Assembly: GCA_019509785.1 (NCBI GenBank)
Contig: JAEKLQ010000024.1
Coordinates: forward strand, 186,001 to 250,000
Reading direction: 5' to 3'
DNA length: 64,000 nucleotides
Origin: Fibrobacterota bacterium
GTDB lineage: Bacteria; Fibrobacterota; Fibrobacteria; UBA11236
Part shown: piece after piece, positions 1,929 through 57,280 of the stretch
Layout: every line of letters starts with the position of its first letter
How positions within the stretch are numbered: position 1 is the first letter of the stretch
The notes under the pieces: model-generated
What the model was told of the DNA's origin: nothing
Database searches by the model: none
The model's input: the letters and a program-made list of their open reading frames with translations, nothing else
Program-made: the position numbers and the translations under genes

Positions 1929-2903
1929 ATGCGCAAGCTCTTCGTCACCCTGGGGGATCCCGCCGGCATCGGCCCCGAAGTCATCGTCAAATGCCTGGCG
2001 GGCATTTCCCTCGAAGGCGAGGTGGAGCCCGTGGTGGTGGGCGAACGCGAAATCCTGGAAGAGACCGCCAAGGCGCTGGGCCTCCACGTGCGCTTCTGCC
2101 CGGACGATTCGCCCCGCCATGGCCGCATCAAGGTGCGCAGCTTGGGGCTGCTCGGCCCCCGCGACTTCGAACTCGGCAAGCTCTCGGCCCCGTGCGGGAA
2201 CGCGGCCTACCATTACTTCGCCCATGCCGTGGAAGCCTGCCTGGCCGGCGAGGCCCAAGGTATCGTCACCGCTCCGCTCAACAAAGAGGCCATGAACCTG
2301 GCCGGCCACCATTACGTGGGGCATACCGACATCCTCGAGAAGATGACGGGGGCGGAAACCGTCATCATGGCCTTGGTACATCCCAAGCTCATCGTCAGCC
2401 ACGTCACCGATCATCTGCCGCTCCGTAAGGCCTTGGACCATATCACCGTCCCGCGCATCAAGGAAGTGGTGAAGCTGACCTGGCGCACCTTGGTGGCCAC
2501 GCGAACGCCCACGCCGCGCATCGCCCTGGCCGGGGTGAACCCGCATGCGGGCGAGAACGGCCTGTTCGGGCGCGAAGAGATCGAGGTGCTCAAGCCGGCG
2601 ATGGAAGAATTGAAGGCGGAGGGCTTTCCCGTGCACGGGCCTTTTCCCGGCGATACCGTGTTCCTGCAAGCCTTGCAGGGCCGCTTCGACGCGGTGCTGG
2701 CCATGTACCACGACCAGGGTTTCGGGCCCATGAAGACGGTGGACATGGCCAACGGGGTGAACTGCACCTTGGGACTGCCCTTCGTGCGCACCTCGCCCGA
2801 TCACGGGACCGCCTTCGAGATCGCGGGGAGCGGATTAGCCGAGCCCGATTCCATGCGGGCGGCGTGGGAGCTGGCGGTGAAGCTGCTTCCGCCGGCTATT
2901 TGA
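1929..2903 (+). CDS. pdxA: 4-hydroxythreonine-4-phosphate dehydrogenase PdxA
   Basis: PdxA oxidises 4-phosphohydroxy-L-threonine with NAD(P)+ in the DXP-dependent route to pyridoxal 5'-phosphate. It is cytosolic and works with PdxJ. The 324 residues match the usual family length. They show the expected signatures: N-terminal TLGDPAGIGPE, TAPLNKEAM, the metal-site GVNPHAGENG, and MYHDQGFGPMK followed by the active-site tail TSPDHGTAFEIAG. Its last 8 bp overlap, tail to tail, the end of the giant gene on the opposite strand. No other pyridoxine gene lies in the window. A PdxA2-type sugar-acid enzyme is possible in principle, but the context gives no support for it. Confidence 0.96.
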   Translation: MRKLFVTLGDPAGIGPEVIVKCLAGISLEGEVEPVVVGEREILEETAKALGLHVRFCPDDSPRHGRIKVRSLGLLGPRDFELGKLSAPCGNAAYHYFAHAVEACLAGEAQGIVTAPLNKEAMNLAGHHYVGHTDILEKMTGAETVIMALVHPKLIVSHVTDHLPLRKALDHITVPRIKEVVKLTWRTLVATRTPTPRIALAGVNPHAGENGLFGREEIEVLKPAMEELKAEGFPVHGPFPGDTVFLQALQGRFDAVLAMYHDQGFGPMKTVDMANGVNCTLGLPFVRTSPDHGTAFEIAGSGLAEPDSMRAAWELAVKLLPPAI

Positions 2904-5900
2904 TCAGCAGCATCTTGCGCGACTTCACGTAGCGCCCCGCCGTGAAGCGGTAGAAGTACTGGCCCGAAGGCGCTTCGATGCCGCCCTCGTTGCGGGCATC
3001 CCACATGACGCTGTACTTGCCAGCCGCCAAAGCCTTATCGGGCCGCACCAAGGTCCGCACCACGCGGCCGCGGGAATCGTAGATGATGAGGCTCACCTTC
3101 AGCTTCTCGCGTAGGGAGAAGCGTAAGGTGGTGATGGGATTGAAGGGATTCGGGTAGTTGGGCAAGAGCTCGGTGGTGAACGGATTGCCGGGGCGCCCGG
3201 CGCGCGGGCCGTAGAAGACGCTCCCGCCGTTGAAGTCCACCGCTTCCAGAAGGTACTGGTACGCGCTCCCGAACGTCGCCGTCCGGTCCAGGAAGACGTA
3301 GTCCCGCGTGCTCGCCGAAGATCCGCCTTGGGCCCCGGGAATGGGCTTAGGCGTGATGCGGACATAGCCCAGGCCGGCCAGCTCCTTCGAGCTCAGCGAG
3401 GCCGAAGGCAGGGTATCCGGCGCGTTACCCTCGGCCGAGGCCTTCCCTGCGGGCGCTTGGGCCGGCCCGGCAGATGCCTTGGCCGCCGCCAGCCGTCCCG
3501 CGTAGGCGAGGCTATCCTTGGCCACGATGGAATCGGCGGCCCCGGAAGGGACATAGCGGCGCCAAACATAGAAGCCGAGATTCTCGAATTCGCTTTCCGT
3601 GGTCCAGGCCAGGGAATCCACGCCATCGCCACCGGTGGCTTCGAAGCGGTTGAGCTTGACCGCCAAGCCCGACTTCTGGCTGATGAAGAAGACGTGTGTG
3701 CCGGGGGCCAGGGTTTTGTTGAATTGCATGACCACTTCGTTGCTGGCCGTATTCAGATAAGCGTTGTAATGGTATCCCCTAGTCAAAACCTGATTATCGA
3801 GCACGACGAAATCGGGCAGGGTGCCCTGCGTCCACGAGCTGATGCGGAAGGCGGGATAGAAAGAGGTTACCGTGTTCACGAACCTGAAACTGGCGATTCC
3901 GCTGGAGGCTGCATAGGTGTAGGCCCCGTCGCCTTCGGCGAAATTGTCGGCGTTGAAATCGAGGGCATCGTTGGTGACGCGGGTGCCGGTGATGGCGGTG
4001 AGGACGGCGGGGATCTGGGAGTCCTTCAAGAGGCTGTCGGCTGTGGCCGAGTCGGCGAATTTCTTGGAGAAATCCATCATGTAGTTGACCGTAACCGGCT
4101 TGTTGGCCGAGGTCCATTGCGAGAGCGGCATGTAGAATTGCAGCGCGCTCTGTTCGCTGGAGCCGGTCTGTTGGGAGTAGAAGGTGCTGCCGCCCGTCAA
4201 AGCCGCCGAAGTCGAATAGGTGGAAGTGGCGTTCTTGACGCTCAGGATGGCCATGCCGATGGGGTGGAAATTGAGGTCTCCGCCGAGCAAAGCCCAACGG
4301 GCATTGGCCGTGGCCGTGGTGGTCGACCACGATGCGGTCGCATTGTTTCCATCGTAGCCCGCGCTGAGATCCAGCCGCGGCGTGTCGAAATTGATGGATT
4401 GATTCCTGACCTGGTAGCTCACGAATACACGTCCTGTTGGGTAGAAGGTGAAGCGCTTGGTCACCGCCGCGGTGCCCTCGCCGGTGAGCGAGTCGGTGCT
4501 GAGGGTCAGGGATAGGCGGGTGGAAGAGCTGTCCACTAAGGTATAGGTGTTGGTCGCCGGCGATAAGTATCCCAGGCCGCTGGCGAACATTTCCGGAGAG
4601 GTCGCATCCAGCTTCAGTGATGACAAAACACGACCCGATTTGTACGAGTATCCGGCCAACTGAAAGGCCGAAGAGACGGCCACGTTGGGGCTCACGGCCG
4701 CGGCCTTCCATTTCATGATTTCTCCGAAGCCGGAGTCGAGTGTGGTTGACGGCGTGCCGGTAGGCGTGGTCCATCCCTTCAACCCGAGCTCCATATACCA
4801 CTGCCCGCTGGACGCGCCGGAAAAGACGGTGTCGGTAAAGTTCTTGATGGCGATCTTGCCTGATGTCGACGTGATGGTCAGCGACTTCATGGCCGTGGCC
4901 GTGCCCATGAACCCGGTCGAATCGTCGTCGTCGATGAACAAGGTCTGATCGGCGCCGGTCAGGATCTTGTTCAACTGCAATGTCAGGTAGTTCCCGGAGT
5001 AGGCGGTGGAAATCGAATCGACCACGTAATCGACATTGGTCTTAAGCTTGGTTCCGTTGAGGAAGACGTACTTGGGGTCGCGCGGCCCGAACCAGTTGGA
5101 GATGTAGAAGGCCGGCTGGACGCGCGTTTGCGCCGCGCCCCCGTTGATCAAGGCCACCACGCGGTTGTTGTTGTCGGCCCGCAGGGCGTAATGGCCGTAG
5201 CGCGACGAGAAGCCGAAATCGTAAACGGATTGCACGTCCGAACCCGGCAGTTCGCGGTTGTAGATACGCACGTCGTCCAAGGTCCCCTTGAATTTGGCAT
5301 TCGCAATCGCTCCGGATGCGTAGCCGAACACCAGGTTGGCGGAATTGCTGGTGGCCGTAGCGGCAGCGGTAGACGCGGCGGTCTGAACCCCGTTGACGTA
5401 CATCTCCAACTGCCGATTGCTTCCCGCATCGGCCACCACCGCGATATGCGTCCATGCTCCGTCCGTTAATGTCGGGCTGGTGACCGTGGCCGCGCCCATG
5501 GTGAAGATCACCTTGTTGACGCCGGTAACCTTGCGGCAATACCAGCCGTTGGCATTTGAGAGGCCCTTACTGAGAATAAGCGCCGTATCCCCCATGGTGA
5601 AGTCGGGCTTGAGCCAGAACATCACCGTGAATCCGTTGGCCGGATTCAGCACGCTGGTGCTGGCTACGTAGGCCGAATCGGTGGTCGTGAAGAGCACGCC
5701 CCCGCCCACCTTGCCGGTGGTCCATTTGTAATTGGCCCCGCCCAAGGTGGCGTTGTTCAGGTTATTCACCGACTTGTCGCGCGCGGTCGATCCCGCCCCG
5801 TCGTCGAAGGTCCAATGCCCTTGGATGAGATCCTGCCAGGAACGCTCGCCGATGAGGGTGCCGGCGCTCATGGAAAGGGTGCTGGGCGTATAGGCGTCGG

Positions 5901-8900
5901 CGTTGATGGCCGCGGCCTTGTCGAAGGTGAGGGAATTGTCGCCGACGTAGAGCAGGAAGTCGTGCCGGCGCACGGTGTTCTGCGACAGGTTGGCCAGGTC
6001 GGTGGTGTTGAAGAGGACGGTGCCAGGCGAGCCCGAGGCGGCTGTGGAAGTCGCCCAGGTTTCGCTCCCCGAAGCTCCCCCGTCGAGGTTGCGGGTCACC
6101 GAGAGCAAGGCGCCGCGCGAAGAGGTGGTCAGGTAGCCGAAGCCGTTATTTGTCCCCGCCGAAGTATAGGCCGCCGTGGTCGTGCCCAGTTTCAACGTGT
6201 AGTCGACCGTGCCCACCGTCGTGGTCGAAGCCGCCAGGTTCGACAGTTCCGATTCGATATACACGTGGCCGGAGGAGTAGACGCTGTAATAGATGTTCAG
6301 GTCGAGGGAGGCGGAAACGGGCAGGCGCTGGCGTATGACCGCCCGGGCGCGGGTGCCTTCGATCAAGGAGAGGACCGGTCCGGCGGTGGTCTGCGATGAA
6401 GCCGTGTAGGAATCGATCTTGGCGTCGAAAAGCAGGCTGTTGCTCGCGAGCAGGTTGGCCGAACTCGTGACCTTGTCGAAGAACTGGGTGATGCCGGCGC
6501 CGCGGGCCTGGTCCCAGATCAGCTTCCATTTCGAATTCTGTACCGTGATCGTCGTCGCGGTGCTTGTAACGGCCAAGGTGTCGAATTCGCCGGAAGGATT
6601 GGGCGTGTAACCGGTGCCTTCGTAGAGGCCGATATCGGGGGCCGTCCCGAGGGGCCGGGCGGTGCCGAAGTAATCGGCGGGAGTGCGGCGGGTGCACGCC
6701 CCCGCCCCCGAGCCGTAAGTCGTAGTGCCCGCATCGATGGCGGGCGAACCGGGAAGGAGCTTGAAGGCGTTGCGATCCGTAGGCGTGGTGTTCGCGAAAA
6801 GGGGGTCCGCCGTGACCGAACCCGTACAGGTGGTCGTGGTAGTATTCTGTCCCGTGGTCACGCCGAAGAACAGGTTGTTCGAGCAAGAGCCGATATTGGC
6901 CAAGAAGGATGTGATCCCGGTACCCCAGTTGTAGAAGATATTGTTCGACACGGTCGCATCGGTGGCGGAGGCGTTGACGAACTGAGAGAATCCGACGGTG
7001 GTGCCGCCCGACCCCACGAATACGTTGTTCACCACGTTGAAGGAATTGTCGTTCTCGGTCAGGATGCCATAGTAGATTGGCTGGTAAATGAGATTGTTGG
7101 CGATATGGTGCTGGTTGTTCGTGCCGCGCAACTCGATTGCGTCACCGTGCTTGTTATTGCTGGCGGTGTTATAGATGCGGCAACCTTCGACAAAGACATT
7201 GTCCGCGCCGGTGACATAGACCCCCACATCGCTGTTGATGAGGCATTTGACGTCCAGATTGCGGATCCCCATGTTGCCATAGAGCACCAAAGTCCATAGA
7301 CGGGCCCCGCCGTCCAAGGTCCCGGACCCATGGCCAAACATCACGGCGCGCGAATTGTTGTCGAAGGAAGTGACGATGGACGGCTTGGTGGTGATGGAGA
7401 AGACGCTGTCGGTATAAGTTCCCGGCATGACGCGCACCACCAGGGTATCCGTCGCACTGGCCCCGCAGGCTAGCGCATCCTTGATCGTCTTCTTCGGCGT
7501 GGAGGGGTTCTGGGCGCTCGCGCAACTGTTCGCCGCTAAACCGGTTGCGGAGTCTACATAGATGGTATCGGGCATGGTGACGCCGACCAAGGTGGCCGAA
7601 TCCGATGACGCGGAAGTGAAGGGACTCCATTTCCCGGAGGTATCCCGCACGGCCAGGGCGAAGTAATAGGTCGTGGGATAGGTCGCGGGGTAGTTATAGG
7701 TGGTATCGGTTTTGATGAGCTTGGCCACGAAAGTAGAGCCGCTGCCCACGCTGTCGGGATAACCCGAATACTTCACCCATATGCCCACCGAATCGGCCTT
7801 GGAGGAGTCGGAAACGGCCGAGGACCAGGACAAGCTGATGTTGCTCGACGAAGTGGCCGTGGCGGTGAGAGTGGCTTTATTGTTCGGGCCCGCGCGGCTG
7901 TTCCAGAATTTGTTGCCGGTGGCCCGCTGGGTTTCGTAATCGAGCTTGATCCAATCCGCCGAGCGGACCGTCTGGCTCCAACGGACTTCGTCGAAATAGC
8001 CGTTCCAAGGGTTTATGTTATTGGTCGACCGGATCCCGATGCGTGCGGTGGACGTATTTCCCGCGAATGACAGGGTTTGACTGCTATAGGTGGAATCGAG
8101 CGATCCATTGACGTACAGCTTGTAGGTGCCCGACCCGTCCCAGGTCCATGCGGCATGGTACCAGGTGGCAGTGGAGAGGACGGTGTTTCCCCGGACCGTG
8201 TTTCCGTTGATGTAGGGTTCCACGCGGTTGGAGCTGCTCACTCCGCTGGCGGCGAGACCGAAGGCGGTCGCCGAAGAATCGGATTTGGTGATGGTAAACA
8301 TACGATTCCCTCCGGCGGATCCCGAGAAGGAGGTGGCGTTGAACCAGGTGCTCAGCGTGACCGGGGTGGAGGTGGCGGGTAGGAAATTACTCGACGCCAC
8401 GAGTTCGACATAATCATTGCCAGAGCCGAACTGATGGCCCCGTCCGATGACCCCGTTCCGCCCGGTCGCGCTGATCATGTCCGTACCATGGTAGGCGTCG
8501 CCGGTGGCGTCCTTATAGACGCTCGCCGTACCCGTTCCGGCGGTTTCTTCGCTCAAGTGCCAGACTCCGGTATGCGAATCCGAGGTCGAAAACACGCAGC
8601 TCCCGCATTGCCCGTCGGCGACGGTCACCCCGTTGGCCTGGTAATACAGGGTGATGAAATCATGATCGCTATTGCCGTCCACCTGGGGCACGAGCACCCA
8701 GATTTCGGCGGAATCGATCCCTCCGGTGCGGTCCCATCTCTCCACCTGGTAGTTGAGCCACGTCGTGCCATCGCCGTCCAGGAAACGGATATCGGTCGGA
8801 GCGGTGGTGCCGCTTCCGTTCACTCCATACGCGGCCAGTCCCGTCAGCCGGACCAGCATCGGATAATTGGCTACGTTGCCCGTTACGTTCGCGCCCGTCT

Positions 8901-11900
8901 TGGTCGTGTTGAAAACCAGCTTCTGGGTGTATTTGAAATCGGAGGGCGAAGGATTGAACAAGGGGGTGGAATCGCGGCGCTGGTTCTGGTAGCAGAGTTT
9001 GATCCAATTGGAATCGCGCGCGACATTGGCGATGGCGATCTCGTCGTATTTCCCCTGGTAATACAAGTCGGTACCATAGTTGGATTTGCCCAGGTAATTG
9101 TTGGTGCGCGTGACGTTGCGTAGGCTTTGGGAGGAGGTTCCGCTCCCCGCCAGCACGCCGTTCTTGTAAAGTTTGAGCGCGGTCCCGTTTATGGTGAGGG
9201 CGAAATGGCCCCATACCCCTGTGGCTATGGCTCCGGTGGCCGTCTTCACGCCTCCCGCGGTCGTGTTGTTCACGATTTCCGCGTAGGAAGTCGTCGAGGT
9301 TCCCTGGCGACCATAATAGAGGTTGTCCACCCCGGAGCCGTTGCCGAAATCGAACAGGCGGGCGCCGGTGGCCGTGCTGGACCAATAGGCCCAGCCCGTA
9401 TAGGTGAATCCGTTGGACCAATCGGCAAGCCCCGAAGCGATGCTCAGGTACTGGTTGCTGCCGTTGAGGCTGTCTGCCCCCGCGATTACCCCTCCCTTGA
9501 ATTCGCTGCCGCTATAGTTGTTAGTGGTCAAGGAACCCGCGCTGCCCACCGCATCGGGGCGCGCCCCGGTCCCGCTGGTATTCAAATGCCAATCCCCGAT
9601 GAAATTGTTCGAGGTTTGGAAAACGCAGCTGGCGCATTGCCCATCGGCCATGGTCCCGCTCACGCTCGCCGCCTGCTTGTAATACATCGTGATGCTATGG
9701 CCCGCGTAATTGCCTTCCACGGTGGGCACCCTGACCCACACCTCCCCCGAATCGATCCCGCCCGTTCGATCCCAGCGCTCGATCTGGTAATCCAGCCAGG
9801 TGACCCCATCGCCGTCCAGGAAGCGGACATCCGTCGGAACGGTTGTGCCCGAATTGTTCGCGGCGAGCGCGGTCACGCCCGAAAGGCGGATCAATACTGG
9901 AAAATTGGTGACATCGGCCGCGATGTTGGCGCCCGAGGCCGTGGTATTGAGCTTAAAGGTCTTCGAGTTTTGGAAAGATGCCGTGGTATAGGCGGTCAGA
10001 AAGGTGCTGGTCGTTTTCTGGGTTTCGTAGGAAAGCTTGATGAAGTCGGAAGAGAGCGCGGTGGCGGTATTGCCGATGCGCACCTCGCTGATGTCCCCGT
10101 TGAAACCGGTTCCGAGGCCCCCCGCATTTTCCCCGATGTAGAGATCGGTATCATTGGTGGTGATGCTGGGGGTCAGGACGGAGGCGGTTCCGTCCCGGGC
10201 TCCGTCCACGTATAACCGCGTGCTATCGCCCGCGAAAGTGCCCACCACGAGATGCCAGCTTCCGTCATTGACGTTCACCGCCCCCCCTGACGCTAAGGTC
10301 GCGCCGGTCTTGTTGCAGGCGAAATACATGAAGTTGGTGGTATTATGGCGGGTCAGCCGAAAGGTGCCGCCTCCCTTGGTCACGATGGCCTGGTAAGCCT
10401 TGTTGAAGGTGCCCACCTTGATCCAAGCCCATACCGATATGTTCGTGGTCAAATCGTAATTCGATTCATTGGGCACGTCGATATAGCTGCTCGCGCTTCC
10501 ATCGAAGACGGCCGCGTTCTTGCTGACGATACCTCCATTGGCCAGATTGGGCAGGTTGGAGACGAAGGTTCCGTGGTTGGCGAGGGTGGTGGCATCGTAC
10601 GCCTTGGCCTCGGGCGCGTTCAGGTGGAACACGCTTTTGAAGACTCCGAACACCGAGTCGGAGCGCGCGTATGCGTTGGTGGTGCAGGAATCGCAGCCAT
10701 AATACAGCGTGATGTAGTCGGTGGCGGAGTTGCCATCCACCTGGGGCACCTTCACCCAGACCTTGCCCGTTTGGTTGGGCTTATCCCACTCCACCACCTG
10801 GTGTTTCAGGGTGGTGCCATCCTTGTCCACGAAAATGAGGTCGGTACCGCTGTCACTGGTCGCGCTGAAGGTCAGGTTCGACGATGTGAAGCGGAGGAAG
10901 AGGGGAAAATTGACGACATTGCCCGACACGTTCGCGCCCGATGAGGTCGTATTGAAGTTGAGCCGAACCGATTTGGTGAGATTGGACAGGGTGGCCGGCA
11001 CGCTGAAAAGCCAATTGGTATTGCTTTTGGCGTTATAGCTATGGGTGGCGACGCCTTTTGAACCCCCCGAGGCATCGCTACCATAAATCGTGGCGTAATC
11101 GGCCGTGAGCGTCCCCGCCGTCGTGATGGTCCATGCCCCCAGGTTCAGATCGACCAGGTTCCCGGCCGATCCCGCGAAGCTGGCGTTTCCGCCCACCGTA
11201 AGGGTGCGCCCCGTGAGATTGGTGAATGCCGATGCGTTTCCGTTGGTGAGGGTGAAATTGCCCGTGGTAGTGACGTCTTCGCCGTTGAAATCCAGGACGC
11301 CGGCGGTTTGCGCGTAGGAAAGGCAATTCAAGGTATTGGTGGAAAGCTGCAAGGTCGCGGCGCCGGTACTAGTGATAGCGGGAAGCGAGATTCCCGAGGG
11401 AGGGGTAAGCACCTGGATGCCGGAGCTTCCGGTCATGGCCAAGGTTCCCGTTCCCGGCGTCACCGCGGTCAGGCTGCGGAGGTTGGCGTCCCCTGTGGTA
11501 ACTTGCACGGTACTGGAGCCGAAATCCATGGATCCCCCCGAAGTCGAGATGGAGGCGATCGAATGAGTAAGCCCGGTCCCCCATTGCCACGTGCCGGCGC
11601 TCTGGGTGAACGCGCCTGTCGTGAGACCGTTGGTATTCACCAGAACGGTTCCCCCGGTTCCGGATTCCGTGATGGTGGGTAAAGTGGCTCCGCTCTTGGG
11701 CGTAAAATTCTGGGTGCCCGAGGTGCCGGTGAAGGCCAAGGTGCCGGTCCCCGCGGTGACGGTCATCCCGGAATAGAAGGTGGCATCGCCGGTGCTGATT
11801 GAAAGGGTTGAGGACCCGAAGTTGAACGTCCCCGTGTAATTGGTGAAATCGATGGAGGCGGCGGTATAGGCCGCGCTCATGGTCGAGTTGGCATCGTCGT

Positions 11901-13845
11901 TGGCGCTCGTTCCGTTGAAGGACAAGTTGAGGCCGGAGGACAGGGTGGTGCCACCTTGGAATTCGTCGAATACCACGGTAGACGTGACGCTGGACGTATG
12001 CGATGTAACGAACAGGGCGATTTGCGAATTGGCTCCGGTGCTTTGCGGAGTTTGGGCGGTCCCGACTTGCGTCCAGGCGCTCGTGGTGGCGGTTCGGTAA
12101 TACGCGGTGACCGAGGTACCGCTTTTGACCATGCGTAGCCAGCAGGGGAAGGTTACGGAACCGGTCGAGGTAAAAGTTTCGAGTTCGCCCACATTGCCGG
12201 AAATGTCGTATTGGAAGTGAAAACCATTCGAAGGCGTTACCGACAATGCGGCATAGCCGCCATTGGTCAGGGTTGCGATATTATCGGCCATCATGATGCC
12301 CGCCTTGGACCAGGGGTCGGCGGCGCTCTGGGATACCATCTTCACGGAAACATCGAAATCGCCCGTGATGTCGCTTCGGTAGGCGGCCACGAATTGGTTG
12401 GTCGCCCCCGAAATGTCCGAGCCCCGGCCGCGAAGGGTGAGCTGGTCGGCATTATCCGTCAGACTGTAGTAAGGGGTTTGGGTATCGGCATAGCCATCGT
12501 TATCGTACATCGTCCAAGCCGCGTTCTTGGTATCGGAGGTGAAATCGTCATCCGTTCCCGATGCGGCCATGCTGCCCGTTCCGTCGGCCTTGGTGGTCCA
12601 ATTGTATGCCTTGTTGAAATCGGTACTCGAGGTGAGTACGGCATTCCGGTTCCAATAAACGGTAGGAGCGGCGGTGGCGCTGTAGGTGACGGCGGTTTGG
12701 CTGCTTTTCTGGGTCTGATAGTTGAGCTTGATCCAGTCCGCCGACCGGGCGGCATTGGAGATTTCCAACTCGTCCATCTTGCCGTTGAAATCGTTATTGG
12801 ATTCTCCCGCGATCTTACGGCCGATGAATAAGAGATCGCCGGTGTTGTCGGTGCCGCCGGTAAAGTTGCTGAACGTAAGGGTCTGCGAGGTGCCGTCGAT
12901 ATAGACCTGCTTGACCGGTCCGGTGCTGTTGTAGACGTAGGTGACCTGGTGCCAGGCATCGGTTCCCACCGCGGTGTTGCCAGCGATGTACGCCCGGGTG
13001 TGGCCGACAAACGCCGGATAGCGTCCTTGCTCGTTCGAATTCGTGGTATTGTCGCCGAAATAGAAATTCGATTCCTGGCTGGACCAGGTGCCGTCGTTCC
13101 CCTTGGAGAATAGGGTTCCCGGACTGGCCACGCCGCTGGACAAGTAGACCCAGGCCGAAGCGGTGAAGAGGGTTCCGAAGCCGACCTGATTGAAGGCGCC
13201 GGTCTGGAAATAATCCCCGGTTCCATCGAAGGTCTGCCCCGTCCCGATGGCGCCGGTCGTGCTGGCGGCATTGCCGTTGCGCGTGCCGCTCAGCCCGTTC
13301 GAGGTGGCATCCGTGATGCTGCCCGAGGTTTCGCCGAGATGCCATACGCCTTGGAAATTATTCCCGGTCGTGAACACGGAGGATGCGCTGGAAGCATCGG
13401 TCTGCCCGCTCTTGCCCCAGTATATCCGGATGTCCGTGCTGGCATTGCCCGCTATCGAGGGCACCAGCACCCAGATGTCCGCCTCCGTCGCGCCCCAAGA
13501 CTCGATCTGGTAGGGAAGCGCCGTAGCCCCGTCCGAGCTGGAGAAGCGCACGTCGGCCCCGTTCGCCAAGGCGTCGCTCAAGACGTCGCTGGCATTGGCC
13601 GTCAGCAACCGTATGAGGATGGGATAGGTGGTCTGCGTGCTGGTTACGTTGGCGCCGCCGCCCGAGTTCGTCGTATTGATGGTGATGGTCTTGTACGTGG
13701 CCCAGGTGTCGTAGGGACCTGCGTGGGCGGTGGCGGCCAGCAGCAGCAGAGCCGCGCAAAGCCTAAGCCCGGCGCGGATCGCCAGCGGCGGTCTCATTCC
13801 GGATATGGGTCGCGGCGCGGATGCCGGATCGAAGTGGCGGTCCAT
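2896..13845 (-). CDS. Giant secreted DUF2341/LamG/beta-helix surface protein
   Basis: This 3649-residue protein is exported. The hydrophobic signal ends AHA near residue 42. Met17 would give a more classical signal peptide, but AGAGGA lies 13 nt before the first ATG. In order: a DUF2341 plus LamG unit (about 43-390), a DUF1349-like sandwich and strand-rich repeats (about 400-950), three more DUF2341-LamG units beginning near 958, 1295 and 1642, a fibronectin-III-like stretch (about 1990), a right-handed beta-helix (about 2090-2400), a fifth LamG (about 2670-2880), and large strand-rich domains. The C-terminus (about 3552-3649) has YPNPFNP, a strand pattern, and PSGQYFYR...KMLLIK, typical of FlgD-like or type-IX-like sorting domains. 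DUF2341 and LamG domains are usually found in carbohydrate- or adhesion-related surface proteins. I infer a surface adhesin or glycan-binding scaffold. Confidence 0.9.
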   Translation of the reverse strand: MDRHFDPASAPRPISGMRPPLAIRAGLRLCAALLLLAATAHAGPYDTWATYKTITINTTNSGGGANVTSTQTTYPILIRLLTANASDVLSDALANGADVRFSSSDGATALPYQIESWGATEADIWVLVPSIAGNASTDIRIYWGKSGQTDASSASSVFTTGNNFQGVWHLGETSGSITDATSNGLSGTRNGNAASTTGAIGTGQTFDGTGDYFQTGAFNQVGFGTLFTASAWVYLSSGVASPGTLFSKGNDGTWSSQESNFYFGDNTTNSNEQGRYPAFVGHTRAYIAGNTAVGTDAWHQVTYVYNSTGPVKQVYIDGTSQTLTFSNFTGGTDNTGDLLFIGRKIAGESNNDFNGKMDELEISNAARSADWIKLNYQTQKSSQTAVTYSATAAPTVYWNRNAVLTSSTDFNKAYNWTTKADGTGSMAASGTDDDFTSDTKNAAWTMYDNDGYADTQTPYYSLTDNADQLTLRGRGSDISGATNQFVAAYRSDITGDFDVSVKMVSQSAADPWSKAGIMMADNIATLTNGGYAALSVTPSNGFHFQYDISGNVGELETFTSTGSVTFPCWLRMVKSGTSVTAYYRTATTSAWTQVGTAQTPQSTGANSQIALFVTSHTSSVTSTVVFDEFQGGTTLSSGLNLSFNGTSANDDANSTMSAAYTAASIDFTNYTGTFNFGSSTLSISTGDATFYSGMTVTAGTGTLAFTGTSGTQNFTPKSGATLPTITESGTGGTVLVNTNGLTTGAFTQSAGTWQWGTGLTHSIASISTSGGSMDFGSSTVQVTTGDANLRSLTAVTPGTGTLAMTGSSGIQVLTPPSGISLPAITSTGAATLQLSTNTLNCLSYAQTAGVLDFNGEDVTTTGNFTLTNGNASAFTNLTGRTLTVGGNASFAGSAGNLVDLNLGAWTITTAGTLTADYATIYGSDASGGSKGVATHSYNAKSNTNWLFSVPATLSNLTKSVRLNFNTTSSGANVSGNVVNFPLFLRFTSSNLTFSATSDSGTDLIFVDKDGTTLKHQVVEWDKPNQTGKVWVKVPQVDGNSATDYITLYYGCDSCTTNAYARSDSVFGVFKSVFHLNAPEAKAYDATTLANHGTFVSNLPNLANGGIVSKNAAVFDGSASSYIDVPNESNYDLTTNISVWAWIKVGTFNKAYQAIVTKGGGTFRLTRHNTTNFMYFACNKTGATLASGGAVNVNDGSWHLVVGTFAGDSTRLYVDGARDGTASVLTPSITTNDTDLYIGENAGGLGTGFNGDISEVRIGNTATALSSDFIKLSYETQKTTSTFLTAYTTASFQNSKTFKLNTTASGANIAADVTNFPVLIRLSGVTALAANNSGTTVPTDVRFLDGDGVTWLDYQIERWDRTGGIDSGEVWVRVPTVEGNYAGHSITMYYKQAASVSGTMADGQCASCVFQTSNNFIGDWHLNTSGTGARPDAVGSAGSLTTNNYSGSEFKGGVIAGADSLNGSNQYLSIASGLADWSNGFTYTGWAYWSSTATGARLFDFGNGSGVDNLYYGRQGTSTTSYAEIVNNTTAGGVKTATGAIATGVWGHFALTINGTALKLYKNGVLAGSGTSSQSLRNVTRTNNYLGKSNYGTDLYYQGKYDEIAIANVARDSNWIKLCYQNQRRDSTPLFNPSPSDFKYTQKLVFNTTKTGANVTGNVANYPMLVRLTGLAAYGVNGSGTTAPTDIRFLDGDGTTWLNYQVERWDRTGGIDSAEIWVLVPQVDGNSDHDFITLYYQANGVTVADGQCGSCVFSTSDSHTGVWHLSEETAGTGTASVYKDATGDAYHGTDMISATGRNGVIGRGHQFGSGNDYVELVASSNFLPATSTPVTLSTWFNATSFSGSAGGNRMFTITKSDSSATAFGLAASGVSSSNRVEPYINGNTVRGNTVLSTATWYHAAWTWDGSGTYKLYVNGSLDSTYSSQTLSFAGNTSTARIGIRSTNNINPWNGYFDEVRWSQTVRSADWIKLDYETQRATGNKFWNSRAGPNNKATLTATATSSSNISLSWSSAVSDSSKADSVGIWVKYSGYPDSVGSGSTFVAKLIKTDTTYNYPATYPTTYYFALAVRDTSGKWSPFTSASSDSATLVGVTMPDTIYVDSATGLAANSCASAQNPSTPKKTIKDALACGASATDTLVVRVMPGTYTDSVFSITTKPSIVTSFDNNSRAVMFGHGSGTLDGGARLWTLVLYGNMGIRNLDVKCLINSDVGVYVTGADNVFVEGCRIYNTASNNKHGDAIELRGTNNQHHIANNLIYQPIYYGILTENDNSFNVVNNVFVGSGGTTVGFSQFVNASATDATVSNNIFYNWGTGITSFLANIGSCSNNLFFGVTTGQNTTTTTCTGSVTADPLFANTTPTDRNAFKLLPGSPAIDAGTTTYGSGAGACTRRTPADYFGTARPLGTAPDIGLYEGTGYTPNPSGEFDTLAVTSTATTITVQNSKWKLIWDQARGAGITQFFDKVTSSANLLASNSLLFDAKIDSYTASSQTTAGPVLSLIEGTRARAVIRQRLPVSASLDLNIYYSVYSSGHVYIESELSNLAASTTTVGTVDYTLKLGTTTAAYTSAGTNNGFGYLTTSSRGALLSVTRNLDGGASGSETWATSTAASGSPGTVLFNTTDLANLSQNTVRRHDFLLYVGDNSLTFDKAAAINADAYTPSTLSMSAGTLIGERSWQDLIQGHWTFDDGAGSTARDKSVNNLNNATLGGANYKWTTGKVGGGVLFTTTDSAYVASTSVLNPANGFTVMFWLKPDFTMGDTALILSKGLSNANGWYCRKVTGVNKVIFTMGAATVTSPTLTDGAWTHIAVVADAGSNRQLEMYVNGVQTAASTAAATATSNSANLVFGYASGAIANAKFKGTLDDVRIYNRELPGSDVQSVYDFGFSSRYGHYALRADNNNRVVALINGGAAQTRVQPAFYISNWFGPRDPKYVFLNGTKLKTNVDYVVDSISTAYSGNYLTLQLNKILTGADQTLFIDDDDSTGFMGTATAMKSLTITSTSGKIAIKNFTDTVFSGASSGQWYMELGLKGWTTPTGTPSTTLDSGFGEIMKWKAAAVSPNVAVSSAFQLAGYSYKSGRVLSSLKLDATSPEMFASGLGYLSPATNTYTLVDSSSTRLSLTLSTDSLTGEGTAAVTKRFTFYPTGRVFVSYQVRNQSINFDTPRLDLSAGYDGNNATASWSTTTATANARWALLGGDLNFHPIGMAILSVKNATSTYSTSAALTGGSTFYSQQTGSSEQSALQFYMPLSQWTSANKPVTVNYMMDFSKKFADSATADSLLKDSQIPAVLTAITGTRVTNDALDFNADNFAEGDGAYTYAASSGIASFRFVNTVTSFYPAFRISSWTQGTLPDFVVLDNQVLTRGYHYNAYLNTASNEVVMQFNKTLAPGTHVFFISQKSGLAVKLNRFEATGGDGVDSLAWTTESEFENLGFYVWRRYVPSGAADSIVAKDSLAYAGRLAAAKASAGPAQAPAGKASAEGNAPDTLPSASLSSKELAGLGYVRITPKPIPGAQGGSSASTRDYVFLDRTATFGSAYQYLLEAVDFNGGSVFYGPRAGRPGNPFTTELLPNYPNPFNPITTLRFSLREKLKVSLIIYDSRGRVVRTLVRPDKALAAGKYSVMWDARNEGGIEAPSGQYFYRFTAGRYVKSRKMLLIK

Positions 13846-42113: not shown

Positions 42114-43229
42114 CTAGAACAGATTTTCCCTCGCCCTTTGCTCCAGGAACAAGTCGGCCAGGGTCAGGGCGGCCATGGCTTCCACGATGACGACCGCCCG
42201 CGGCAGGACGCAGGGATCGTGCCGCCCCTTGGCGGCCAGGGTGCGCGGCTTCCCGTGCTTGTCCACCGTCTGCTGGGGAAGCGATATTGTTGCCGTGGGC
42301 TTGAACGCGATACGGCACAGGATGGGCTCGCCGTTGGTGATGCCTCCCTGCACTCCGCCCGAACGGTTGCTGGAAGTGCCGATGGAGTCGAGGGGCGAAG
42401 CGTCCTTGGCCCGCTTACCGCCCTTCACGATGAAGGGATCGTTGTGTTGGCTGCCCTTGAGGCGAGTGCCGGCGAAGCCGCTCCCGATTTCGAAACCTTT
42501 GGTGGCCGGCAGGGAGAGGAAGGCGCGGGCCAGTTCAGCTTCGGCGCGGTGGAAGACGGGTTCTCCCACTCCCTTCGGCGGCCGCGTGACCACGAGTTGG
42601 ATGACCCCGCCCAGGGAATCCTGGGATTTGCGGGCGGCCTCGATGGCGGCCGCCATCTTCTTCGCGGCCGCCGCGTCCGCGCAGCGCACGGGATTGGCCT
42701 CGACCATGGCGAGGGTGGCCTTAAGCGGATCGATGGCCGCGTCGATTTCCCCCACTTGCGATACGTAGGCGAGGATTTCCGTTCCGCAGGCTTCCTTCAG
42801 GAGCTTGCGCGCCAGCGCGCCCGCGGCCACGCGGCCGATGGTCTCGCGCGCCGAAGCGCGGCCGCCCCCGCGGTGATCCCGGAAACCGTATTTGAGATCG
42901 TAGGTGAAATCGGCATGGGAGGGGCGATACATCTCGGCCATGTCGCCGTAATCGTGCGAGCGCTGATCGGTATTGGCGACCAGCATGCCGATGGGCGTGC
43001 CGGTGGTCTTCCCGTCGAAAATGCCGGACAGGATCTCCACCTTGTCGGCCTCGTTGCGGGGCGTGGTCAGCTTGCTTTGGCCGGGACGGCGGCGATCGAG
43101 TTCGGCCTGCACCTCGGCCTCGCTGATGGAAAGGCCGGCCGGGCAGCCGTCCAGGACCACCCCGACGGCCTTGCCGTGGCTTTCGCCGAACGTGGAGATG
43201 CGGAACAGGTTGCCGTAGGAGGAGGACAT
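42114..43229 (-). CDS. aroC: Chorismate synthase
   Basis: Catalyses the last shikimate-pathway step, 5-enolpyruvylshikimate 3-phosphate to chorismate, using reduced FMN. The 371 residues include the family signatures [40 protein letters not shown] and GGITNGEPI. The start at 43229 gives the conserved [17 protein letters not shown]-terminus; the frame upstream to 43424 is not conserved. Nothing else from the pathway is nearby. It is transcribed towards the PhoX-like gene, with the 530-bp gap behind it. Confidence 0.97.
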
Positions 43230-43546
43230 GATCTCAAGTATAGGAATTCGCCGTTGCTGGGCTGGGTCTGGCGTGGCCGTGCCTCCGGGGCGGTTCGGAT
43301 GACTCGCTTTCCCGGGTGGGCGGTCGATCGCCGGCCGGGGGAATGGGGACGCCCGCGCAATGGGGAGCGCGGGCTTTCTATGAGGGAAATCGATCCCCTT
43401 CCCCCGGCCGGCGACGCTCGTCAACTCACCGCCCCGGAGGCCCGGACACGCCTACTCCGTTCCGCCACGGCGAACGCCCATCCTTTTGACTGGCGCATGC
43501 GATCCTGGCAGTCGGTTTCGCGGAGGCTGGGGGAGAAAGAAGGGGG

Positions 43547-43595
43547 CTATAGAGACTTTGTGTAGACAATGATTGTCAATACAAAGTCTGTATGG
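43547..43595. repeat. 49-bp near-perfect palindrome
   Basis: The core arms are 43553-43570 and 43572-43589, 18 nt each with 16 matching, around a single central G. Outside one mismatch the pairing continues for a further 4-5 bp. Outer arms read AGACTTTGT and ACAAAGTCT, inner arms GACAAT and ATTGTC. It is clearly AT-richer than its surroundings. Candidate roles are a dimer operator, a cruciform or a small RNA stem; no transposase or target duplication was found. Confidence 0.7.
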
Positions 43596-43608
43596 GTGGC
43601 AATGCCTA

Positions 43609-43636
43609 CCGCCCCTGGAGGGGCGGGGTGGTTTTT
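43609..43636 (+). terminator. GC hairpin followed by T5
   Basis: CCGCCCC (43609-43615) and GGGGCGG (43620-43626) form a perfect 7-bp stem with loop TGGA, followed after 5 nt by TTTTT (43632-43636). On the plus strand it reads as an intrinsic terminator, although no plus-strand gene precedes it. It would end a transcript from the palindrome region. Confidence 0.5.
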
Positions 43637-43759
43637 CGTGAGGCTCTGGGAGAGAGGGGGCGGACTAGGCCGGACTGGGGCCCCTTAGATAGGGGGCTCT
43701 GCTTTGGCGGTTGCGGGCCTGTCTATGCGAGGTAGGCGTGCTCTGGGGGCGGGCCCCTG

Positions 43760-44095
43760 CTAAGCGGGACCTTGGAGCTTGGGGTTGTTCTTGTGGCGGT
43801 CGGCGTCGCGGGCGGTTTTCTTCTCGAGGTTCTGGGCGAAGGCGGCGGTCAGGTCCACGCCGGTCTGGTTGGCCAGGCAGATGAGGACGAACAGGACGTC
43901 GGCCATCTCGTCTCCCAGGTCCTTGGCCAGGTCCGCTTTCTTGAAGCTCTGATCGCCGTAGGTGCGGGCCATGATGCGGGCCACTTCGCCCACCTCTTCC
44001 ATGAGGATGGCGGTATTGGTCAGTTCGCTGAAGTAGCGCACCCCGATGGTCTTGATCCAGGAGTCCACCTGGGCTTGGGCTTCTTTAAGCGTCAT
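43760..44095 (-). CDS. MazG-like nucleotide pyrophosphohydrolase
   Basis: A 111-residue all-alpha NTP pyrophosphohydrolase of the single-domain MazG type. The magnesium-binding pattern is present: Glu34-x-x-Glu37 in MEEVGEVAR and Glu63-x-x-Asp66 in LGDEMADVLF. It would hydrolyse dNTPs or aberrant nucleotides to the monophosphate. It has no partner gene in the window and is divergent from the glycosyltransferase by 150 bp. It resembles housecleaning enzymes more than the stress regulator MazG itself, which has two domains. Confidence 0.93.
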   Translation of the reverse strand: MTLKEAQAQVDSWIKTIGVRYFSELTNTAILMEEVGEVARIMARTYGDQSFKKADLAKDLGDEMADVLFVLICLANQTGVDLTAAFAQNLEKKTARDADRHKNNPKLQGPA

Positions 44096-57225: not shown

Positions 57226-57280
57226 GTCCCTAACAGAATGCTGGCTTAGAGCGAGGCCGAGACCCCATTCTGTTAGGGAC
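57226..57280 (-). promoter_or_regulatory. Leader hairpin over the rfbB ribosome-binding site
   Basis: Two 15-nt arms, GTCCCTAACAGAATG (57226-57240) and CATTCTGTTAGGGAC (57266-57280), are perfectly complementary with a 25-nt loop. On the minus strand the arm nearest the gene ends 5 nt before the rfbB ATG and includes the GGGA that would serve as Shine-Dalgarno. Closing the hairpin would block translation. The word also occurs in the SH3 gene at 50557. Confidence 0.6.

Follow-up and report, generated by a model that had tools for sequence, protein, structure and literature searches.

A dispersed palindrome family with REP-like habits in a Fibrobacterota bacterium

What does a 49-bp, AT-rich, almost fully symmetrical sequence do between aroC and mazG in a Fibrobacterota bacterium, and does it serve either gene? 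The palindrome lies at 43547-43595 of the window, by which we mean the whole 64,000-nucleotide stretch of DNA that was analyzed. Both neighboring genes are on the minus strand, and the interval from the aroC start (43229) to the mazG end (43760) was noncoding, as an earlier note on this DNA had described it. The features of the gap and its borders were as follows.

42114 to 43229, minus strand: aroC, chorismate synthase (Pfam PF01264, E 7.6e-140), with the gene start 318 bp from the palindrome.
43236 to 43485, strand-neutral: long GC-rich inverted repeat of a separate repeat family, distinct from the palindrome.
43549 to 43570, plus strand: left arm of the palindrome, ATAGAGACTTTGTGTAGACAAT, belonging to a ten-member family.
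43559 to 43583, strand-neutral: match to the family core TGTATTGACAATsATTGTCAATACA, as defined by the alignment of copies; the window copy reads TGTGTAGACAATGATTGTCAATACA.
43572 to 43593, plus strand: right arm of the palindrome, ATTGTCAATACAAAGTCTGTAT, with the inner 12-mer ATTGTCAATACA.
43609 to 43637, plus strand: terminator-like GC-rich hairpin (stem 43609-43626) followed by the T run GGTGGTTTTT.
43760 to 44095, minus strand: mazG-type pyrophosphohydrolase (Pfam PF03819, E 3.8e-13), with the 3' end 165 bp from the palindrome.

The best core of the palindrome, 43549-43593, was Watson-Crick in 19 of 22 pairs, its arms being 86% complementary around a single central base at 43571. Symmetry continued to the outer limits at 43547-43595, adding one Watson-Crick and one G-T pair, and the inner 15 bp formed a 7-1-7 dyad. 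The length of 49 bp and the 16 of 18 core pairs reported previously were thereby upheld. By our own score, this element was the top-scoring short-loop palindrome of the whole window. Its AT-rich palindrome score was 13, compared with a maximum of 11 across 40 composition-matched first-order Markov windows. Stretches of this genome totaling 400 kb contained a single further AT-rich palindrome scoring at least 12, itself a member of the family described below. The predicted RNA fold of 43540-43640 had a free energy of -44.9 kcal/mol (z -4.9). The palindrome is real and well above chance; with its score above the Markov maximum and ten matching copies in the genome, which by themselves already rule out chance, an accidental origin has a negligible probability.

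The terminator-like hairpin that had been reported beside the palindrome was present on the plus strand at 43609-43637 and carried both marks of an intrinsic terminator, a GC-rich stem and a T run. At 43549-43593, a terminator scan of both strands made no call. Much of the gap was occupied by the separate inverted repeat at 43236-43485, a near-perfect, GC-rich long hairpin of ~200-250 nt (-142.6 kcal/mol, z -7.4) with at least eight relatives in the same genome (68-78% identity) and one short match in the nearest species, G005. Elsewhere in the window, a perfect 15-bp inverted repeat (GTCCCTAACAGAATG / CATTCTGTTAGGGAC, 25-bp spacer) lay between minus-strand genes at 57226-57280, and 2896-13797 was predicted to hold one minus-strand gene of about 10.9 kb.

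The earlier note had proposed searching the rest of the genome for the same palindrome, and ten copies were found. The genome (G000) is a 106-contig draft, 96% complete. Using the palindrome as the query, two further loci were recovered, and a half-arm pattern search added three more, with 0 matches to the reversed control pattern. A covariance model (R1) built from six copies returned exactly ten loci in this genome, with E below 2e-7 on either strand and below 2e-8 on the best strand, and nothing weaker, between about 1e-7 and E=10. The loci were located on the following contigs.

Family loci: C24 (the window), C33, C39, C46, C49, C53, C54, C56, C58, and C87.

These copies were 37-41 bp palindromes scattered over the genome, with the core TGTATTGACAAT-s-ATTGTCAATACA and the alignment consensus (G/C)ACAnTGTATTGACAATsATTGTCAATACAnTGT(C/G). 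The inner 25 bp was nearly invariant among the ten, and ATTGTCAATACA was common to them up to a few bases. Among the four guesses offered previously, an element relic comes nearest, as the palindrome is a dispersed ten-copy repeat; an operator and a small-RNA stem fared poorly.

Flanking pairs 6-40, 9-37, and 10-36 differed between copies and were complementary within each copy, with AT, TA, GC, and CG all occurring at pair 10-36. Arms within a copy matched each other better than they matched the arms of other copies. The p value for pair 10-36 was 0.0006, the overall covariation score was reached in 0 of 500 within-column shuffles, and the arm match was reached in 0 of 20,000 re-dealings of whole arms among copies, which preserve the make-up of each arm; the copies are related, and these values are not strict probabilities. 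Such arm matching may have one of several origins: the action of an enzyme on the hairpin, selection, or the homogenization of inverted-repeat arms through template switching (PMC8794818).

We scrutinized the genomic placement of the copies using, outside the window, our own gene predictions from a simple codon-usage gene caller. Every own copy (10/10) followed a gene 3' end, including the copy on C53, where the next gene was missed by the caller and the distance was assigned by hand. Convergent genes flanked four of the ten sites, and the other six were in tandem gaps. Divergent gaps contained no site (0/10, p 0.015), compared with their share of 34% by number and 42% by length among the gaps in 400 kb of the genome. 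When these sites were combined with those of a second palindrome family in G005, only 1 of 45 was divergent versus 34% of gaps (p 1.6e-7), convergent gaps were enriched (13 of 45 versus 10%), and within tandem gaps the 3' end of the upstream gene was the nearer one at 24 of 31 sites. On C33 (L035:1540) and C49 (L036:1540), the palindrome edge supplied the TAG stop codon of the neighboring minus-strand gene, as expected for an inserted sequence. The lone divergent-gap site, L057 (G005:C125:36931), lay between a gene for a DUF4423 protein and a ThuA gene. We take DUF4423 to be a Fibrobacter-type regulator family, and this protein is a possible candidate binder of the family sites.

R1 gave 0 matches in five congeneric species. 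Across about 90-100 further relatives it gave a single weak match, in G062; the matched sequence, an AT-rich intrinsic terminator that follows a hemB-like gene, was judged unrelated. The exact core had no match in about 85,000 species genomes or in the viral collection, and no plasmid or phage match for the palindrome was found. A loosened core matched one Desulfobacula sequence, near the chance expectation in 257 Gb. Two viral contigs carrying the G005 19-mer were missing the second arm, and congeners carrying ATTGTCANTACA held no comparable palindrome. Judged by these searches, the ten-copy family is species-specific.

The expectation of conservation in relatives was borne out only in part: the sequence was absent from the five congeners, yet the mazG-aroC gap of G005 contained a palindrome that was related but different. 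G005 is the nearest species and, among the congeners, has the aroC closest to that of G000 (87%). The palindrome in its gap, TGTAATGTCATTGTCATTACAgggctTGTccgTACAATGACATTACA, represents a 47-bp family of about 36 copies that was confined to G005 and likewise located at 3' ends. Both families had the 12-mer ATTGTCAWTACA in common, and the own 12-mer ATTGTCAATACA differed by one base from ATTGTCATTACA of the G005 family. Of the seven own gaps with a testable counterpart in G005, three contained elements of the G005 family there (mazG-aroC, leuA, and hisF, the last with two copies; about 0.0003 by chance) and four did not (purD, lhr, methyltransferase/flippase, and cNMP-binding). Both flanking genes corresponded in G005 for mazG-aroC and hisF, and one only for leuA. 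Within the G005 family, invariant base positions alternated with free ones (variance about twice the mean), a pattern that suggests base-specific recognition, and the arms showed no covariation except at pair 1-21 inside the left module (p 0.005). No target-site duplication above background flanked 10 own and 33 G005 copies, and alignment of the orthologous gaps, which were too diverged, gave no clean empty site. The C33 gap of G000 exceeded its G005 counterpart by about 44 bp, a difference consistent with an insertion, with flanks that were not cleanly alignable. G005 also carried other palindromic sequences. Downstream of leuA, and about 100 bp away from the element of the G005 family, L123:2594-2660 was a separate array in which three near-palindromic 19-bp modules (TGTTGAACAATGTTCAACA type) were separated by 5-bp spacers and repeated with a 24-bp period. 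At the cNMP-protein locus, L134:225-271 was a further imperfect palindrome, AAGGTCTAAGGTTTAAGG...CCTTAAACCTTAGACCTT.

Our leaning, with some reserve, is toward a REP-type extragenic palindromic repeat that is non-autonomous, low in copy number, and species-specific, and whose copying enzyme would be absent or unrecognized, because dispersed copies, species restriction, placement at 3' ends, and hairpin-like arm matching are REP-type habits. The occurrence in G005 of a sister family with the same habits also argues for this reading. REP, REPIN, and BIME elements are short extragenic palindromes in species-specific families that prefer sites downstream of genes (PMC3733652, PMC2817692, PMC3116915), REP elements being mostly downstream (PMC3733652), and the present family is likewise short, extragenic, species-specific, and mostly downstream of genes. 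Unlike GTAG-type REP elements and their RAYT enzymes, it has an AT-rich, fully symmetric core and a copy number of ten here and about 36 in G005, where REP copies often exceed 100. Neither an unpaired GTAG/GTGG tetranucleotide nor a CGTC tag stood at one end in the copy alignment. The Y1/RAYT transposase model (PF01797) had 0 matches in G005 and in G000, where at 96% completeness absence is not absolute; the same model matched only the congener G001, and controls were positive in E. coli and four others. A half-arm search of the own genome for a parent IS, which the incomplete assembly could hide, returned palindrome copies only. Without the tag, the enzyme, and the high copy number, the family would therefore be REP-like in its workings without belonging to the REP family. 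CGTC-tagged repeats are similar as palindromic families without a dedicated transposase (PMC3733652), whereas in the symmetric core here neither a head nor a tail is defined. MITEs are similar in being non-autonomous, hairpin-forming, dispersed, and sometimes a source of stop codons, but they differ in the target-site duplications and the parent IS with the same ends, neither of which was found here. Quasipalindrome correction, in which template switching homogenizes inverted-repeat arms and produces compensatory changes without selection (PMC8794818, PMC8604942), accounts for the arm matching only and not for ten dispersed copies.

Shared positions, as seen with G005 at three of the seven gaps that could be compared, are unusual for independently mobile repeats, and retained positions with a changed sequence are the feature that the mobile reading has most difficulty explaining. 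This combination keeps alive a rather doubtful alternative, namely that the palindromes serve as recognition sites for a DNA-binding protein (a chromosome organizer or a recombination or replication factor), with positions kept while the sequence co-evolves in each species. Consistent with such sites are the shared gaps, the common 12-mer, the alternation of invariant and free positions in G005, the resemblance of the 7-1-7 dyad to a dimer site, and the copy numbers. However, a dimer site leaves arm complementarity at non-fixed positions unexplained, four of the seven gaps had no G005 element, such sites were absent from the other congeners, and no binding protein was found. The sites matS and parS are symmetric sequences present in tens of copies outside genes. 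The palindromes resemble them as multiple symmetric extragenic sites, but here the sequence changes completely between sister species, the arms covary, and the cognate protein is only putative. A role in the RNA is possible but, in our judgment, improbable: the palindrome would act as a 3'-end hairpin in mRNA, whether by ending transcripts in both directions, by marking a site of processing, or by providing a stabilizing stem. The uniform position after 3' ends, the four convergent sites, the strong hairpin, and the compensatory changes with some G-U pairs would all fit, but both strands at the palindrome lack a U tract, ftsZ has its own intrinsic terminator upstream of its palindrome copy, and both core strands are equally conserved, which an RNA would not require. 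In addition, the orientation of the asymmetric G005 family relative to the upstream gene, 16 against 9, was not significant. Rfam covariance models gave no match at the gathering threshold, leaving the suggestion of a specific small-RNA gene unsupported.

Least probable of the functional readings, and very much so, is an operator regulating aroC and/or mazG. The palindrome is upstream of aroC and its core dyad resembles a dimeric operator, but it stands 318 bp from the gene start and no sigma-70-like promoter was found nearby. The other nine copies lie beside unrelated genes, none in a divergent promoter gap and four of the ten sites between convergent genes, which have no promoter. No link of the palindrome to aroC or mazG was found, and it probably does nothing specific for either.

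If the family is a REP-type repeat, its copies would have spread, or been rewritten, by way of a single-stranded hairpin or a cruciform. Some enzyme may have acted on the hairpin, and template switching between arms during replication may have preserved their complementarity. Copies landing in promoters would have been lost, with those after 3' ends remaining. The element may predate the split from G005, its sequence having afterward undergone a different replacement in each species. Among short palindrome families of bacteria, the best studied are linked to RAYT transposases, and the family described here has REP habits without such an enzyme in its genome. With a different sequence and some positions kept in the sister species, the two families offer a tractable small case for distinguishing selfish leftovers from sites used by a protein. 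We regard it as unlikely, if worth stating, that sister species retain palindromic sites at the same gene borders while each species rewrites the entire set in step with a putative trans-acting protein; if true, the sites and their binder would form a rapidly evolving system in a group that lacks REP transposases.
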